64,000 nt of DNA from Lentisphaerae bacterium WC36 (GTDB lineage Bacteria; Verrucomicrobiota; Lentisphaeria; Victivallales; SZUA-371), in the NCBI GenBank assembly GCA_020683205.1, contig CP085689.1, positions 62,001 to 126,000 of the forward strand, in the 5' to 3' direction. Below, in pieces: positions 50,202-57,373 of this stretch. Each line of letters starts with the position of its first letter. Within the stretch, counting starts at the first letter, position 1. The notes below the pieces were generated by a model, which did not search any database, had not been told where the DNA came from, and saw only the letters and a program-made list of their open reading frames with translations. The position numbers and the translations under genes are program-made.

Positions 50202-51956
50202 TTATTGGTTAAATCTCTTGTAATCAATTTGTGGCGCTTGAAGATTGTATTGAGGTTTAGTCATACGATTTGTTTCAGCGTCATAAAACTCTTGCTGTTT
50301 TGGAATTTCCTTAAAAGACCCTAAACTTGTAACAGGAAATCCAGTTGTTACTGATAATTTTTTCGCATCAATTAATAATGGTTGAGCCCAATGGTTAATA
50401 TAATTTAATAAAATTGTATTACTGGCATCTAATTTACCATTTTCAAATAGAAAGTTATAGGCATCATTTTTGCGAGTAATAATCATTAATGCAGAAGCAC
50501 GCGTTAAAGCTGCCATATCGCTTAAAGTTTTGTCATTATTACGTTGCGCAATTTCACGAAGTTTTACAGTACTGTACATTGCAAAGTCTGGTCGTGCCGA
50601 TAAATTTGATGCCACACCGTAACATAACCAATATCCAGCTGTGGATTTAACTTTATTGTTAACGGCCGCAAAAATTTGCCCTGCCATCTTCATAGGCATA
50701 TTATTTTTGTATACATGATACCAGTCAAGCATATAGTAATATGATGATGGTGAAGCATTTAAATTTCGCTCAAAAACTCGCATTGTTCCGCCTGTAATAT
50801 CAGCTTTAAAACCTTCAATTTCACGTTCAATAGATGAATCATATTTGATAAAATTGGCTGGTTTTTTCAGCGGAGCCCATACCTCCTTAACTAATGAATA
50901 TAAACCCGTCGAACGATCTAAAATTGAAATTTTTTCTTCAACACTTTTAATGCCATTTTTTTGTGATAGATTGTATAGTATCATTGCTTTTACTTGGTTT
51001 TTATTCGTACCAAATCCGTCGCTGTAGCAATCTGCTAATAATGGCATTGCTTGTATATAATTACGGCTAATTGAGCATTTTAGCCAATTGAAGCCTTTTT
51101 CAATGTCTGCTTTAGAGTTTCCAACAATTCCATTTAAATAGAGGGCTCCAAGGTTTTTTTGAGCTGCTGCATTTCCATTTTTTGCTGCATTTTTAAATAG
51201 TGCAAAAGCAGTTTTTAAATCTTTTGGCACTCCTTTTCCCGCAGTATACATGACTCCAAGTTCGTTCATTGCTGGGGGATAATTCAAACGTGCCGCTTTT
51301 CGAAACCACAGTGCAGCTTTTTCAAATTCTTTACGCTTTGCATAACATAAACCTAAACCATAAAGTGCTGGAGGATAATTTTTTGAAATTGAACGCTGAA
51401 AATACTCCATTGCACGGACTGTGTTTGGTTGAACATCTATTCCGTTTAGATACATGAAACCCACATTAGCAATAGCAGGAATATATGATTCAGCAGCCGC
51501 TCGTTTAAAAAATTGCATCGCTTGAGAGTAGTTTTGTTTTACGCCATATCCATTTAAAAAAGCTTCTCCAAGAGCATTCTGAGCGTAAACATTATTGCTA
51601 ATCGCCAATGATCGAAGTCCTGGAATAGCCCTCTCAAAAAGTTCATGAGCTTGTACTGTATCTGGATATTGCATTGCTAATCCTTCATGGTTGATTACCC
51701 CAAGGATGTATAATCCCATTGGATCACCGACCGATGCAGATTGGCTTGCTAAACTTTTTGCTTGATTATAGTCGACATTAAAGAGGAATCCATTAATATA
51801 ACTGTTGGCAACCAATGCTTGATAATACGCATTCCCTTGAGCCACTTCTTGTTGCCATTCATCTTTTAATGAAGTGCATCCCGTGAAATTCAATGTTGCT
51901 AGTGCTACTGCTGCAGCACAAAATAGATTATACTTTAAATACTTTGACTTCTTCAT
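50202..51956 (-). CDS. Sel1-repeat lipoprotein
   Basis: 584 residues from ATG 51956; a longer TTG start (51974) is possible because GGAG lies between the two. A lipoprotein signal ends ATLNFTGC. Residues about 45-370 hold around nine Sel1-like repeats (patterns such as AQNALGEAFLNGYGVKQNY, AMNELGVMYTAGKGVPKD, AQKNLGALYLNG). The remaining 200 residues are helical without a known domain. It is probably an outer-membrane or periplasmic scaffold for protein contacts. Confidence 0.85.
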   Translation of the reverse strand: MKKSKYLKYNLFCAAAVALATLNFTGCTSLKDEWQQEVAQGNAYYQALVANSYINGFLFNVDYNQAKSLASQSASVGDPMGLYILGVINHEGLAMQYPDTVQAHELFERAIPGLRSLAISNNVYAQNALGEAFLNGYGVKQNYSQAMQFFKRAAAESYIPAIANVGFMYLNGIDVQPNTVRAMEYFQRSISKNYPPALYGLGLCYAKRKEFEKAALWFRKAARLNYPPAMNELGVMYTAGKGVPKDLKTAFALFKNAAKNGNAAAQKNLGALYLNGIVGNSKADIEKGFNWLKCSISRNYIQAMPLLADCYSDGFGTNKNQVKAMILYNLSQKNGIKSVEEKISILDRSTGLYSLVKEVWAPLKKPANFIKYDSSIEREIEGFKADITGGTMRVFERNLNASPSSYYYMLDWYHVYKNNMPMKMAGQIFAAVNNKVKSTAGYWLCYGVASNLSARPDFAMYSTVKLREIAQRNNDKTLSDMAALTRASALMIITRKNDAYNFLFENGKLDASNTILLNYINHWAQPLLIDAKKLSVTTGFPVTSLGSFKEIPKQQEFYDAETNRMTKPQYNLQAPQIDYKRFNQ

Positions 51957-52440
51957 AACTATCAATTTCTCCAAAAATATTATAAATATTAATCGTAATA
52001 TTTTGTAATTATTTAAGACGATTTACATCATTGATGATGCAAAAATAACCCTTTTTAAAAATTTTTTGTTAAAATTTTTCTTTTTTAAAATTCTCTGATT
52101 ATCAATATTATTTAGAGGTTGAAATATATTCTAACAAATTCATTGAGTAATATATAAAATTACCCATAAAATTAACTTACATCATAAAATGATAAACTGC
52201 AAATTTTTGCTTATAAATAATGTAAAATGTCATGTTCAGTAGTTGTAACGGCTATTTATAGTATTTTGAAATAACTTTTTTTAGATCAGTTTTTGAAATT
52301 TTACAAGAACTCTTTATTTTATGTTCAAAATTTTTGAGAAGAGTGTTCTGAGATATTTTTTAAGTTGTATTTTTTAAAAATTGTAATAGATTAATCAATA
52401 AGGATAATTTGGGATATGTAATATATAAAATGATAATTTT

Positions 52441-52543
52441 ATATCAAATTTTTAGTTTTATCTCTGCCTACTTACCAAATTTTTTTGGAAAGTCCTATTT
52501 TTTTGACCTGCTGATTGTGAAAACTATTAGCAGGTTTGTTTTT
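52441..52543 (+). ncRNA. Possible third small-RNA unit ending in a terminator
   Basis: ACCTGCT (52506-52512) pairs with AGCAGGT (52529-52535), followed by TTGTTTTT. Upstream, TCTCTGCCTA and a TTTTTTTGGAAAG tract loosely recall the CTCTCTA and TTTTTTAGAAAG blocks of the two repeats below. No gene on the plus strand precedes it, so the hairpin probably ends a non-coding transcript. Homology to the repeats is doubtful. Confidence 0.4.
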
Positions 52544-52651
52544 CGATAATAATAGAATAAAAATAAAAAAATATAAAAAAATATAAAAAAATGAAAAATT
52601 TGACAATATCCTGTTAAGAAACTTTTTTCTAAATGGTTTATATTAGTAAAA

Positions 52652-52780
52652 TAGGACATTTCTAAAAATTTCATAAATATAGCCTTTACATTTTTAAAGC
52701 TATTTCTCTCTACAAAAAAATTGATTTTTTAGAAAGATTAAAAAAGTCAGGGTATTAAAACTCTGACTTTTTGTTTTTTT
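52652..52780 (+). ncRNA. Candidate structured small RNA, copy 1
   Basis: About 125 bases nearly identical to 53113-53231. Predicted by eye: P1 TTTCTAAAAA (52659-52668) with TTTTTAGAAA (52726-52735); P2 ATAGCCTTTA (52679-52688) with TAAAGCTAT (52695-52703), one bulge; P3 AGTCAGGG (52745-52752) with CTCTGACT (52761-52768) followed by T-runs, a terminator. TTGACA at about 52600 is a promoter candidate. No family recognised. Confidence 0.65.
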
Positions 52781-53112
52781 TATACACAGTTTTTACTTGC
52801 AATCATGATATTGCCCTTGTCAGAAACTTTTAATCTTTACAAATAATTTCATATTAGTTGTGATTTTTTAATTTATCATTATTTTAATAATTTTATTAAG
52901 TAAAGGCTACAACTTTGATAGAATTAATTTTTATTTAAATATAGTAAAACTTTATTATTGATTTATTTTTTTTATAAATTGGTGTTTGATTTGAGAAGTT
53001 TTATTAGTAAAAATTGAGTTCAAGAAGTGTAAAAATGCTAAAATAGCAATTTTTTAAAGAAAACTTTAAATTTTATGTTAAGATCTAGGTTTTTAGTTAG
53101 TTTAATTATTAC

Positions 53113-53231
53113 ATAGGACATTTCTAAAAATTTCATAATATAGCCTTTACATTTTAAAGCTATTTCTCTCTACAAAAATTTGATTTTTTAGAAAAAATTA
53201 AGCCAGAGTGTTAAAACTCTGGCTTTTTTTA
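53113..53231 (+). ncRNA. Candidate structured small RNA, copy 2
   Basis: Second copy. P1 53121-53130 with 53185-53194; P2 53140-53149 with 53155-53163; P3 AGCCAGAG (53201-53208) with CTCTGGCT (53217-53224), then T7. Relative to copy 1 one T-A pair in P3 is C-G here, a compensatory change, and a G-T pair became A-T. The P3 hairpin may also end the convergent lipoprotein gene on the minus strand. Confidence 0.65.
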
Positions 53232-53247
53232 TATTAAGACTTAGTCG

Positions 53248-54144
53248 TTAATCTAAAACAATGACATTATGAACAGAGCCAGTTCTGCGTGGATTTTTCC
53301 AATGCCAAATAACTTTGTTATTAGGAGAAAATTCAATTAATTGGACTCCTTTATTGGAGTCATTCGCACCATGTCCTGTCCAGTTAGCTACAATGATGTT
53401 GCCATTTTTCATTAGCTGCATTCCACTAAAAAAGTGAAAACCGAGCTTTTGGGCTTGAGGATGGTTTTTCCCACCATACTCTTTAACAACTTTATTATTT
53501 TTTAAATTAATTTCTGTAATATTTTGCCCATAACCATTGGCAACTAAAATATTACCATTAGCTAATTTTTGAACTTCATAAATATGACGGGCTCCTGCAA
53601 CCGTAATATCATGATAAATTTTCTTTGAAAAATCACTAATTACTACATGGTTATTATTGCAACCAAACATTAGTTTGCCATCGTTATCGATATTTAACAA
53701 GCGAATATTGCGATATTGAGGGAAATTAATGTGTTTAATGATTTTATCATTTTTATCTAATTTATAAATATTAATGCCATTTCTGCTATTGCCCGCTAAA
53801 ATCGTGCTACCATCGTCTAAACGAATTGCATTCATATTAGATCTGAATTTACCATTAAACTTTTTGGTTGTTTTTAATGATTTACGATCAATTTCTCTAT
53901 AGCCATTATCAGTGCTTATTAAGAGTTTGTTATCGGCAATTAATTGTAAATCACGTGATTTAACGTTTAATTTAATAATCCAGTCGTTCTGAGTATTTGC
54001 TAAATCAACCTGTAAAACTTGTTTGCGTGATTCATCTGACAAAATAAATTTATGTTTTTGAGGATTATACTCTTTATTTACAGCACAACTACTAATTGTT
54101 AATAACGAACCTAAAATACTTAATGCTAAAAAGATTTTTTTCAT
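53248..54144 (-). CDS. Beta-propeller-like lipoprotein
   Basis: 298 residues from ATG 54144, chosen because AAGGAAC precedes it; a frame extension to 54177 overlaps the cytochrome gene. The signal KKIFLALSILGSLLTISSC gives a lipidated Cys. The rest is made of repeated beta-strands with D-G-N/L patterns (ANGNILVANGYGQNITEIN, KNGNIIVANWTGHGAN, FSPNNKVIWHW), like six-bladed propellers in PQQ/arylsulfotransferase-type proteins. It begins 4 nt after the large cytochrome gene and probably works with it in the periplasm. Confidence 0.75.
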   Translation of the reverse strand: MKKIFLALSILGSLLTISSCAVNKEYNPQKHKFILSDESRKQVLQVDLANTQNDWIIKLNVKSRDLQLIADNKLLISTDNGYREIDRKSLKTTKKFNGKFRSNMNAIRLDDGSTILAGNSRNGINIYKLDKNDKIIKHINFPQYRNIRLLNIDNDGKLMFGCNNNHVVISDFSKKIYHDITVAGARHIYEVQKLANGNILVANGYGQNITEINLKNNKVVKEYGGKNHPQAQKLGFHFFSGMQLMKNGNIIVANWTGHGANDSNKGVQLIEFSPNNKVIWHWKNPRRTGSVHNVIVLD

Positions 54145-54148
54145 TATA

Positions 54149-57100
54149 TTATTGTTCCTTTTTCTGTATTTTTTCATATTCTTTTTCTTGTTCTCTAATC
54201 AAACATGACCCACAAACACATTTTTGAGGACCACGTCCACATGTCCCTTCAATATCGTGAGAAATCATTGGTTCTAAGCAGTCATTTACCAATTTGACAA
54301 GTTTTTGATATTTTGGATCATTTTTAGATTTAAATAATGGATACATTTGTCCCCAACCGCCAGCTTCTATTGCCAATGGGGCTAATAAAATCCTACTCAA
54401 ACTTAAGTCTGAATGGTTAATTAATGCAGCCGTTGGTTGTTGTGCTGTTTTTTCTCCAAAAGTTTCTTTAACAAACTGCTTTAATTTTTTAACACCTTCT
54501 TGGTTAATTTTGCGATATTCTGGACGATTGTAAGAGTAATTGCCATAGAATTGTGCGTTGACATCTAACCAGTCAATAACCCTTTGGATTTCATCTTTAG
54601 TTAATTTTGTTTTGCCATGGCCAGCTCTTAACATTTTTGGTAAAATGCTATTTGGTGAGAAGAAATCCTTATAAGTGCTGTATGCAGGTTCATTACGGTT
54701 ACGCATTAGACGTTTATAGATTTTGTTGTTGTTAACTAACGTTGCATATGATATGCTTGTTCTTATCCTACTCGCTCCAATGTGTCCAAAATATTGTTGC
54801 TTAATATGTCCAATTAGGTTAACATTGCCACGTTCATTTTTACGATTTAGACCATGGCATGAAATACAATGTTTATCTAAAACAGGTTGTACTGTGCGTC
54901 CAAAATTAAACCCTTCAGTTTCGGCGTAAGTTGGTCCTGCTGGAGGAGTAATTTTACTTAATTTTAAGTTTCTAAGGCGGAAATTGCGGGGATCCATAAT
55001 TGGTGTTTTATCACGCTGTTCATGACAGCCAAGGCAACTAGCAAATTCACCTGGGTGTAAGTAAATAAAACTACGCATTGTCATTACAGCTTCACCATTT
55101 TCATCAAGAAGTTGTAGCTGTAAAGGTTTCGATGCTGGTGCTTCAAAATATGCCGAACCATTACTATTAACGGGTACTGTACCAATAATTTTCTTGGTTG
55201 CTTCATTTGCAACAGCGCCACGATTGGGTTTCCATGGAGTCGGTTGGTTTAGGATTTCGTTGATACGAATTCTTTTAATTGTACCTTTTGGAATATTTGC
55301 TGTGCTTTCATAAACATTTTGAATGAAGTAAGTTCCAGTTAAACTTTTGCTATTAGGATCTAGGCTACTTGGAATAACTGGTGGAGCTTCACGTTTTTGA
55401 ATTGGAATAGGTGAAAATACCGAGACTTTAGGATCATCAAGAATCTTGATTTTATAAACATTATCACCAAGAATTTTTTCTCCTAAATTAAAAGCTAAAT
55501 ATAGACCAAAAGCGTTTGGTTCTTGTATTCTAGTTTGATAAATGTAGTTGTTTGGTGTGTATGAGACCAAGAAAAGATCTTCAGTGATTGGGTATGGTGT
55601 AGCATAAGATTCAGTTGGCGTACCTTCTGATTCAGGGAAACAAACATTGGCCGTCAAGCGTGTAATTGGTTCTGCTCCTTCTTCTCCTTTATTGCGGTCA
55701 ATTAAAATGATTGAACCATTAGCAAAAGAGTGGTGTGCTGTAGCAGTTCCGATAATTTTCGTGCCATGAGAGCTTGGCACTTCGCGCGGATTCATAATAG
55801 AATATGGATTAACAGTTAAATTTCCATAATAGTTTTTGTTGTTTGTTCCATCTGGGTTCATCGCCCACATCATGTGAAATTGAGTATCATGTCGGTTAAT
55901 ATACTCCCAACGGTTGTATAAAATTCTTCCATCGCTCAACACGGTTGGTACAGTTTCATTGGCTTCACCAAAAGTTAATGGTCTGATATCTGAACCATCA
56001 AGATTTGCGCTATATATTAAAAAAGCTGGGGCATTTCTGCGTCCGTGGCAACGCGCGACATTTTGTGAACGCGTTGAAGTAAAGGCGATTCGTCCGTTTG
56101 GTAGGTAGGTTGGATCAAAATCTTGAATCATTTGCGTATAACGACCACCTAAGCGTTTAAAATTATCATTTTTAGAGCCTGTAATTTGACGAACCCAAGA
56201 TCCATCAATTGCAGCCTCGTAAATAAAATAACGACGTTTCAATGGGTTTGGTTCTGTAAAATCAGCATACTCAAATAATACTTTTTTGCCGTCATAACTT
56301 AATTCTGGATGCGAAAAAGATCCTTTAGGTAATTTATCTTGTAAAATATGTTCAACTTTACGTGATGAATTTTTCCACTCTTTAATAATAGTAATACCTG
56401 GGCAGATTCCTGCGTGTTTTGCCAAATATTGGTCAACGTTATGCGAATAACGTGGAACTTGACGCATATTTACTAAGAGATCTTTAAATTGTAATTTGGG
56501 ATGAGTTAAGATGATTTCTTTACATAATTGATCGACCTCTACAAATAATGATTTTATTTTATTTTCATCATTATTTTTTATAGCGACGGTTAACTGTTGT
56601 GATTTTTTATCAATCTGATCAGAAAAATCCTGTTTTCCTCCAGCTTTTTTTACCTCTTTATTTAATTTTGAAGCAATCACAATTTTAGCCATTTGTTCTA
56701 TATATTTAAATGGAGTTCCATTATGAAATTTTGTAATCAATTTGCGTAAAGTATTGTTATCTGTTGTTGGGAAAAGCCCTTTAATATTCTGTAATTTTGC
56801 AGTATATTCACTGCAAAATGATTTTATAAATTTATTTTTTCCTTTGAAAAATTTTTCTTGACGCCTTAGTGATTCATCATATTTTTTAATTTTTTCTAAT
56901 AATAGGCAACGATTTTCAATTTTAAAAAGTAGCTCAATCCACTTTGGAGAATCAAGCTTTAACTTGTTCTTTTGATATCTTTTTAACTCGAGCAACAGAG
57001 GAGCATAAAGATTTTTGTCATTTGCCATCAATTCATAGCAGTGGTCTTGAAATAATTTAGCTTTAGAGGCATTTATCAAAAATTTACCATATTTGAATTG

Positions 57101-57373
57101 AGCTTTAACTCTAAAGTATCCATTTGCAATAGCGGGATATCTAGATCTCAGTCTACCAATAGTCCATAATTCATTTTTTGTAATATGGGCAATAAGTGTT
57201 TTGGCAAATTCTGTAACGTTTTCGCCCTTGTAGTAAACATCTGTATTAGATGTTCGTTTTGTTTGTGCATTATTTGCTGTTTTAGCAAATAATTCTGCTG
57301 GTGTTGACATTGCAAATAATGGCAATGTCACAGATAATGCATGGAGCATTAGCTTTTTGTTTAATAAATTCAT
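54149..57373 (-). CDS. HzsA-related multidomain cytochrome c protein
   Basis: 1074 residues. A signal peptide (about 1-30) is followed by a helical N-terminal region of about 300 residues. A TolB/PD40-like propeller (about 340-620) has FSHPELSYDGKKVLFEY and FDPTYLPNGRIAFTSTRS. The C-terminal part carries two haem-attachment motifs, CLGCH near 779 and CISCH near 833, then a Cys cluster (CGRGPQKCVCGSC) near the end. This order matches HzsA-related proteins widespread in Planctomycetota and Lentisphaerota. The true reaction is unknown; hydrazine synthesis is not implied. Confidence 0.82.
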   Translation of the reverse strand: MNLLNKKLMLHALSVTLPLFAMSTPAELFAKTANNAQTKRTSNTDVYYKGENVTEFAKTLIAHITKNELWTIGRLRSRYPAIANGYFRVKAQFKYGKFLINASKAKLFQDHCYELMANDKNLYAPLLLELKRYQKNKLKLDSPKWIELLFKIENRCLLLEKIKKYDESLRRQEKFFKGKNKFIKSFCSEYTAKLQNIKGLFPTTDNNTLRKLITKFHNGTPFKYIEQMAKIVIASKLNKEVKKAGGKQDFSDQIDKKSQQLTVAIKNNDENKIKSLFVEVDQLCKEIILTHPKLQFKDLLVNMRQVPRYSHNVDQYLAKHAGICPGITIIKEWKNSSRKVEHILQDKLPKGSFSHPELSYDGKKVLFEYADFTEPNPLKRRYFIYEAAIDGSWVRQITGSKNDNFKRLGGRYTQMIQDFDPTYLPNGRIAFTSTRSQNVARCHGRRNAPAFLIYSANLDGSDIRPLTFGEANETVPTVLSDGRILYNRWEYINRHDTQFHMMWAMNPDGTNNKNYYGNLTVNPYSIMNPREVPSSHGTKIIGTATAHHSFANGSIILIDRNKGEEGAEPITRLTANVCFPESEGTPTESYATPYPITEDLFLVSYTPNNYIYQTRIQEPNAFGLYLAFNLGEKILGDNVYKIKILDDPKVSVFSPIPIQKREAPPVIPSSLDPNSKSLTGTYFIQNVYESTANIPKGTIKRIRINEILNQPTPWKPNRGAVANEATKKIIGTVPVNSNGSAYFEAPASKPLQLQLLDENGEAVMTMRSFIYLHPGEFASCLGCHEQRDKTPIMDPRNFRLRNLKLSKITPPAGPTYAETEGFNFGRTVQPVLDKHCISCHGLNRKNERGNVNLIGHIKQQYFGHIGASRIRTSISYATLVNNNKIYKRLMRNRNEPAYSTYKDFFSPNSILPKMLRAGHGKTKLTKDEIQRVIDWLDVNAQFYGNYSYNRPEYRKINQEGVKKLKQFVKETFGEKTAQQPTAALINHSDLSLSRILLAPLAIEAGGWGQMYPLFKSKNDPKYQKLVKLVNDCLEPMISHDIEGTCGRGPQKCVCGSCLIREQEKEYEKIQKKEQ

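Follow-up and report, generated by a model that had tools for sequence, protein, structure and literature searches.

Three sibling small RNAs (sRNAs) of Lentisphaerae bacterium WC36, two of them encoded in the window (the whole 64,000-nucleotide stretch of DNA analysed here) and one elsewhere in the same genome, probably act in trans and block translation of an AraC-family regulator gene, AraC1, at its initiation region; the copies and the complementarity were computed, and transcription, binding and repression are what we infer. The complementarity to AraC1 is stronger support for a trans-acting sRNA than the base changes in the terminator hairpin (P3) of the copies.

Repeat copies in the window and in the genome

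The features of the two copies in the window, and the position of the third copy, are:
52612-52644 (+), copy 1 promoter-like sequence: TGTTAAGA at 52612-52619 and the -10-like TATATT at 52639-52644, the upstream block being conserved in three copies
52651-52780 (+), sRNA copy 1, from the repeat, the fold and the third genomic copy; putative start at around 52651, its terminator U-run reaching about 52780
52659-52735 (+), copy 1 P1 helix with the enclosed P2 and CU-rich loop, from the fold; the P1 3' strand is retained in copy 3
52741-52772 (+), copy 1 intrinsic terminator hairpin (P3), from a terminator search
53076-53106 (+), copy 2 promoter-like sequence: TGTTAAGA at 53076-53083 and the -10-like TTTAAT at 53101-53106
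53113-53233 (+), sRNA copy 2, from the repeat and the fold
53200-53225 (+), copy 2 terminator hairpin, called on both strands
G000:C1:3351317-3351416 (-), sRNA copy 3, from a search of the organism's own 3.66-Mb single-contig genome

The original prediction described two nearly identical segments of about 120 bases that lie in the same direction, about 460 bases apart, in one gene-free stretch, and this description holds: a global alignment of copies 1 and 2 gives 114 identities over 130 columns, with no difference in the first 26 nt, and both copies lie on the plus strand with starts 462 nt apart. The gene-free stretch (about 51957-53247) has two minus-strand neighbours, the Sel1-repeat gene at 50202-51974 and the beta-propeller-like gene at 53248-54177. 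The sRNA body contains no ATG and no plus-strand gene follows copy 1 or copy 2 within the window, which makes the body neither mRNA nor leader; copies 2 and 3 are each followed by a convergent gene. A cis-regulatory leader or riboswitch was ruled out, there being no same-strand gene downstream and copy 3 facing a convergent gene, and a search of the repeats for tRNA and tmRNA found none.

Copy 3 has an S41 peptidase gene on one side and a PglD-like acetyltransferase gene on the other, and a covariance model run against the organism's own genome returned exactly three copies and nothing else close. A body of 67 nt is near-identical in the three copies, copy 1 alone differing, by two 1-nt indels. 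Beyond the body the linker has diverged, yet P1 keeps its 10-nt 3' strand, and the terminator stem of copy 3 is unrelated to those of copies 1 and 2. Upstream, the likeness of the copies stops right at the putative start, and beyond it only the -10-like and -35-like boxes are alike: TGTTAAGA is common to all three copies, and the -10-like hexamers TATATT, TTTAAT and TATAAT of copies 1-3 each stand 6 nt from ATAGGAC. This pattern of boxes, body and terminator at three sites is, as far as sequence can tell, the appearance of independent sRNA genes. Copies 2 and 3, each tail to tail with a convergent gene, probably share that gene's terminator. It is scarcely credible that the copies are non-functional, untranscribed repeats of AT-rich intergenic DNA, a reading that would fit their AT-richness and the lack of relatives in the other genomes searched: about 67 nt are identical bar two 1-nt indels at three sites, and each site keeps a terminator although the flanks and the copy 3 terminator are unrelated.

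Promoter-like boxes, an intrinsic terminator, no ORF and a position other than that of a downstream gene's leader are the marks of a standalone sRNA found here, and with three related copies in the genome the element counts as a multicopy sRNA family (two or more closely related copies). With boxes, body and terminator at three sites, no ORF, no dependent gene and no Rfam match, the element fits an undescribed trans-acting sRNA; the suggested sRNA pair is a trio, and its undescribed nature is supported.

Fold and terminators

As predicted, both window copies form the same helices: P1, the bulged P2 and the terminator hairpin fold alike. In copy 1, P1 has 10 bp (52659-52668 paired with 52726-52735) and the bulged P2 has 9 bp (52679-52703). 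The MFE z-scores of the two window copies against dinucleotide shuffles are -3.6 and -4.8, and none of 200 shuffles is as stable. The region has three terminator-like sites where 0.1 would be expected, and the copy 2 hairpin is symmetrical, so that it can also terminate the convergent gene at 53248-54177 (-). The compensatory changes noticed earlier in P3 (T-A to C-G, G.T to A-T) are real; they are no evidence of function, because any intrinsic terminator requires that pairing. P1 and P2 are without covariation support, since neither helix has a single substitution between the copies.

Family and homologue searches

The earlier statement that no known family is recognisable agrees with Rfam 15, in which no match exceeds the gathering threshold; the best sub-threshold matches of a permissive search have at most 23 bits, all with E of at least 0.18. 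The suggested comparison with homologues that keep the P1-P3 pairings had no material, as a covariance-model search of 137 genomes of the order returned the organism's own copies only. A DNA search of 60 relatives likewise gave no homologue (one 29-nt match lies inside a coding gene), and about 85,000 species genomes (genome_contigs) gave no match to an exact 21-nt pattern, a search that diverged relatives could escape. Phage and plasmid collections held no match to the sRNA, and a single 21-nt match in viral contigs was rejected, sitting in unrelated sequence. As far as could be searched, the sRNA thus seems limited to this one genome, and both the sRNA family and its target appear undescribed. 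The phosphoglucosamine mutase encoded in the window shares 66% identity with a protein of an uncultured bacterium and 62% with one of 'Lentisphaeria bacterium RGIG5364'; judged by this single protein, the organism is most likely of Lentisphaeria type.

Complementarity to the AraC1 leader

The conserved loop UUUCUCUCUAC recurs only once elsewhere in the genome: the 5' UTR of AraC1 contains it in reverse orientation. The sites concerned are:
52703-52718 (+), copy 1 seed UUUCUCUCUACAAAAA, mostly unpaired, fully complementary over its 16 nt to the AraC1 5' UTR
53163-53178 (+), copy 2 seed UUUCUCUCUACAAAAA, from the seed match
G000:C1 about 3281005-3281832 = L307:9006-9833 (-), AraC1, AraC-family regulator gene

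The longest perfect block between sRNA and AraC1 is 16 nt, UUUUUGUAGAGAGAAA, and is followed in order by the matching blocks AUAGU, UUUAAAAUGUAAGGU (the Shine-Dalgarno sequence), UAUG with the start codon, UUUUUAGAGA (codons 2-5) and CUAU. The duplexes predicted with the AraC1 leader (RNAduplex) reach -45.5 kcal/mol for copy 1, -50.2 for copy 2 and -46.8 for copy 3, the last of them comprising 52 pairs over 65 nt. AT-rich sequence favours long weak duplexes, and among 120-nt windows of the genome, about 17,000 in number, the best non-self one reaches -37.5 kcal/mol. A duplex of -50.2 (copy 2) is expected about 0.04 times genome-wide by a conservative exponential-tail extrapolation, which was preferred over Gumbel fits of the duplex energies, these being poor in the tail. 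Against shuffled sRNA or shuffled leader the AraC1 duplex has z = -6 to -7, and none of 1000 shuffles reaches it; a local alignment of the sRNA with the AraC1 antisense strand scores 64.5, compared with a mean of 30.6 (sd 4.8, maximum 49) for shuffles.

The stretch that pairs is the stretch that is identical among the copies, and the copy-specific indels fall at unpaired positions. The seed has an unpaired probability of about 0.8-1.0 in all copies, its first base excepted; the P2 segment needed for pairing with the Shine-Dalgarno sequence would be hidden within the sRNA fold. A genome-wide scan for complements of the seed found no excess of sites (65 against 94 in the control).

The carbohydrate gene cluster and other candidate targets

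The target search covered a sample of about 480 kb with 351 gene starts, together with genome-wide pattern searches. The three strongest of the 351 starts are AraC1 (-50.2, a rank that is not independent, AraC1 having been found through its seed match), a divergent prepilin-like gene (-37.8) and AraC2 (-36.5), the mean being -20.6, and all three lie within one 8-kb carbohydrate gene cluster, which also encodes a GH2 beta-galactosidase and an NPCBM-domain protein. That ranks 2 and 3 both fall among the 13 other sampled starts of this locus has, by our calculation, a chance probability of about 0.001. AraC2 is a paralogue of AraC1 (6 kb away, protein 33% identical), and its pairing likewise includes UAGAGAGAAA, both the Shine-Dalgarno sequence and the start codon, and also a CUAU within the first few codons. 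Taken alone, the duplexes of AraC2 and of the prepilin-like gene are not significant genome-wide; the two are perhaps weaker candidate targets. The pairing of the genome's 11 other AraC genes with the sRNA is unremarkable.

Between AraC1 and AraC2 lie two short ORFs (L307:12692-14114, -) that resemble, by eye, the N-terminal half of AraC proteins. The longer of them has no Pfam match and neither leader pairs with the sRNA; they are possibly decayed regulators.

The motif TAGAGARRAA was also observed in the 5' UTR, before the Shine-Dalgarno sequence, of several prepilin-like genes, at a sulfatase start and at a GH20 hexosaminidase. The starts that bear it are:
L343, G000:C1 about 2446956
L350, G000:C1 about 3574609
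L340, G000:C1 about 1406439
L341, G000:C1 about 1601587

These leaders are a possible wider regulon of the sRNA or share a common leader element. They also bear on an alternative that we consider unlikely: the sRNA trio would be real, AraC1 would not be its target or not the main one, the likeness to AraC1 would stem from AraC-leader ancestry or chance, and the loop would act on 5' UTRs with UAGAGARRAA. The motif does precede the Shine-Dalgarno sequence of two more prepilin-like genes, the sulfatase and the hexosaminidase; duplexes with these other leaders are, however, much weaker (-28 to -31), the number of TAGAGARRAA sites is no higher than in the control, and AraC1 is an outlier among all tested leaders. 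It is less probable still that the shared TTTGTAGAGAGAAA-type sequence serves as a DNA operator (of the AraC proteins, for instance) which the sRNA loop matches by coincidence or as a decoy. A similar sequence with short inverted arms (AACTTTTTGTAGAGAGAAAGTT, AACTTTTGTAGAGAAGAAGTT) precedes both divergent genes, as an operator might, but the collinear likeness runs about 65 nt into the Shine-Dalgarno sequence, the start codon and the coding region, which is superfluous for an operator, and in AraC2 and the prepilin-like genes the motif lies downstream of a -10-like box, in transcribed sequence.

Proposed mechanism and origin

If the three sRNAs silence AraC1, as we favour, each would be a transcript of about 120 nt with a promoter of its own, and its end would be set by its own terminator or by one shared with a convergent gene. 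The open loop UUUCUCUCUAC would nucleate on UAGAGAGAAA of the AraC1 5' UTR, and pairing would spread by strand invasion of P2 and P1, sequestering the Shine-Dalgarno sequence, the start codon and the first codons. Ribosome loading would thereby be blocked and AraC1 translation would fall, probably with decay of the mRNA being triggered; the effect is taken to be repressive because the pairing sits at the translation start. A lower level of AraC1 would in turn lower expression of the carbohydrate gene cluster presumed to be under its control, gene order being the reason for regarding AraC1 as an activator of its neighbours. A search for Hfq (PF17209) in the 93%-complete single-contig genome gave no match, the controls being detected: either the extended pairing would dispense with a chaperone or another RNA-binding protein would serve.

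Read on the opposite strand, the body looks like an AraC1-type gene start as far as ATG (AAA) TTT TTA GA, which suggests that the sRNA gene may derive from the antisense strand of such a start region. This translation-start-like appearance, similar to AraC1, could also mean that the minus strand is what is conserved, as duplicated remnants of AraC-type gene starts or as short ORFs (ATG AAA TTT TTA GAA ATG TCC TAT). We regard this as highly improbable: the three minus-strand frames share nothing past eight codons, that of copy 3 has a stop after 13 codons, conservation extends into the plus-strand -10-like and upstream boxes at fixed spacing, and the terminators are on the plus strand.

The near-absolute conservation of the pairing stretch in three copies with diverged flanks favours either selection or very recent duplication; for an sRNA of antisense origin, the complementarity seen in this one genome may reflect descent without present regulation as well as selection. 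We put forward, tentatively and with more doubt than conviction, that the sRNA was born recently as an inverted copy of an AraC-type start, was triplicated with its promoter and silences the parental-type regulator in trans by about 50 bp of pairing across the 5' UTR, the Shine-Dalgarno sequence and the start codon. The case hints at the birth of a trans-acting sRNA from the antisense of a gene start region, and birth by inverted copying, if true, would give bacteria a counterpart of the microRNA genes that arise through inverted duplication of their targets. Silencing by such an sRNA would also be, to our knowledge, a first case of post-transcriptional control over a sugar cluster in the phylum.

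Comparison with known sRNA systems

Multicopy paralogous intergenic sRNAs are known from the glycan degrader Bacteroides thetaiotaomicron, in which FopS/GibS (14 copies) attach close to the start codons of mRNAs for polysaccharide utilisation and repress their translation, FopS targeting SusC-like transporters through a short 5' seed (PMC11697453). The WC36 sRNAs are similar in having several paralogous intergenic copies with a shared 5' part and divergent 3' parts; they differ, by description, in the phylum, in copy number (three against 14) and in having no Rfam match, and unlike in FopS the strongest candidate is an AraC regulator, for which a pairing of about 65 nt is predicted. LhrC1-5 of Listeria monocytogenes form a group of sibling sRNAs; several copies are present, partly in tandem, and their unpaired loops are CU-rich (PMC4132741). 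Several copies, a partly tandem arrangement and a CU-rich unpaired loop recur in WC36, whereas the loop motif is CUCUCUAC, the predicted pairing is much longer and a sequence relation is not indicated by Rfam. The LhrC sRNAs bind Shine-Dalgarno regions. In Neisseria, NgncR_162/163 (NmsRA/B) are two near-identical tandem sRNAs acting on metabolic mRNAs (PMC9973317, PMC5362039). The tandem arrangement of near-identical sRNAs is shared with WC36; in contrast, the sequences are unrelated by Rfam search and no Hfq was found in this genome. The Neisseria sRNAs depend on Hfq.

On sequence grounds we would file the trio as a new family within a known class, that of multicopy sRNAs acting at start codons. 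In the open-access literature we found no base-pairing sRNA described in Lentisphaerota. The trio and AraC1 provide a concrete candidate sRNA-target pair in a glycan-degrading lineage with no detectable Hfq and, if the pair is true, would be a counterpart, in an unrelated phylum, of the way in which Bacteroides controls polysaccharide utilisation by multicopy sRNAs.

Other observations

A second terminator-bearing element lies upstream of copy 1 at 52440-52545 (+). Its GTCCTATTTT (52492-52501) is complementary to the sRNA 5' end AAAATAGGAC and stands directly before a strong hairpin (about 52504-52536) followed by a U-run. The element is possibly a further small RNA, or else a sponge; as a sponge it was not retained, the energy of the whole duplex being unremarkable (-23 to -26). 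A 1074-aa protein is encoded at 54149-57373 (-); no relatives were found in three family genomes searched, and at least 10 long relatives (at least 500 residues, 30-38% identical) are spread across its own genome, so the protein family is a large lineage-specific expansion. Near sRNA copy 3, at L012:4995-7040 (-), a protein with collagen-like G-x-y repeats (GDKGDTGEKGDKG) is encoded.
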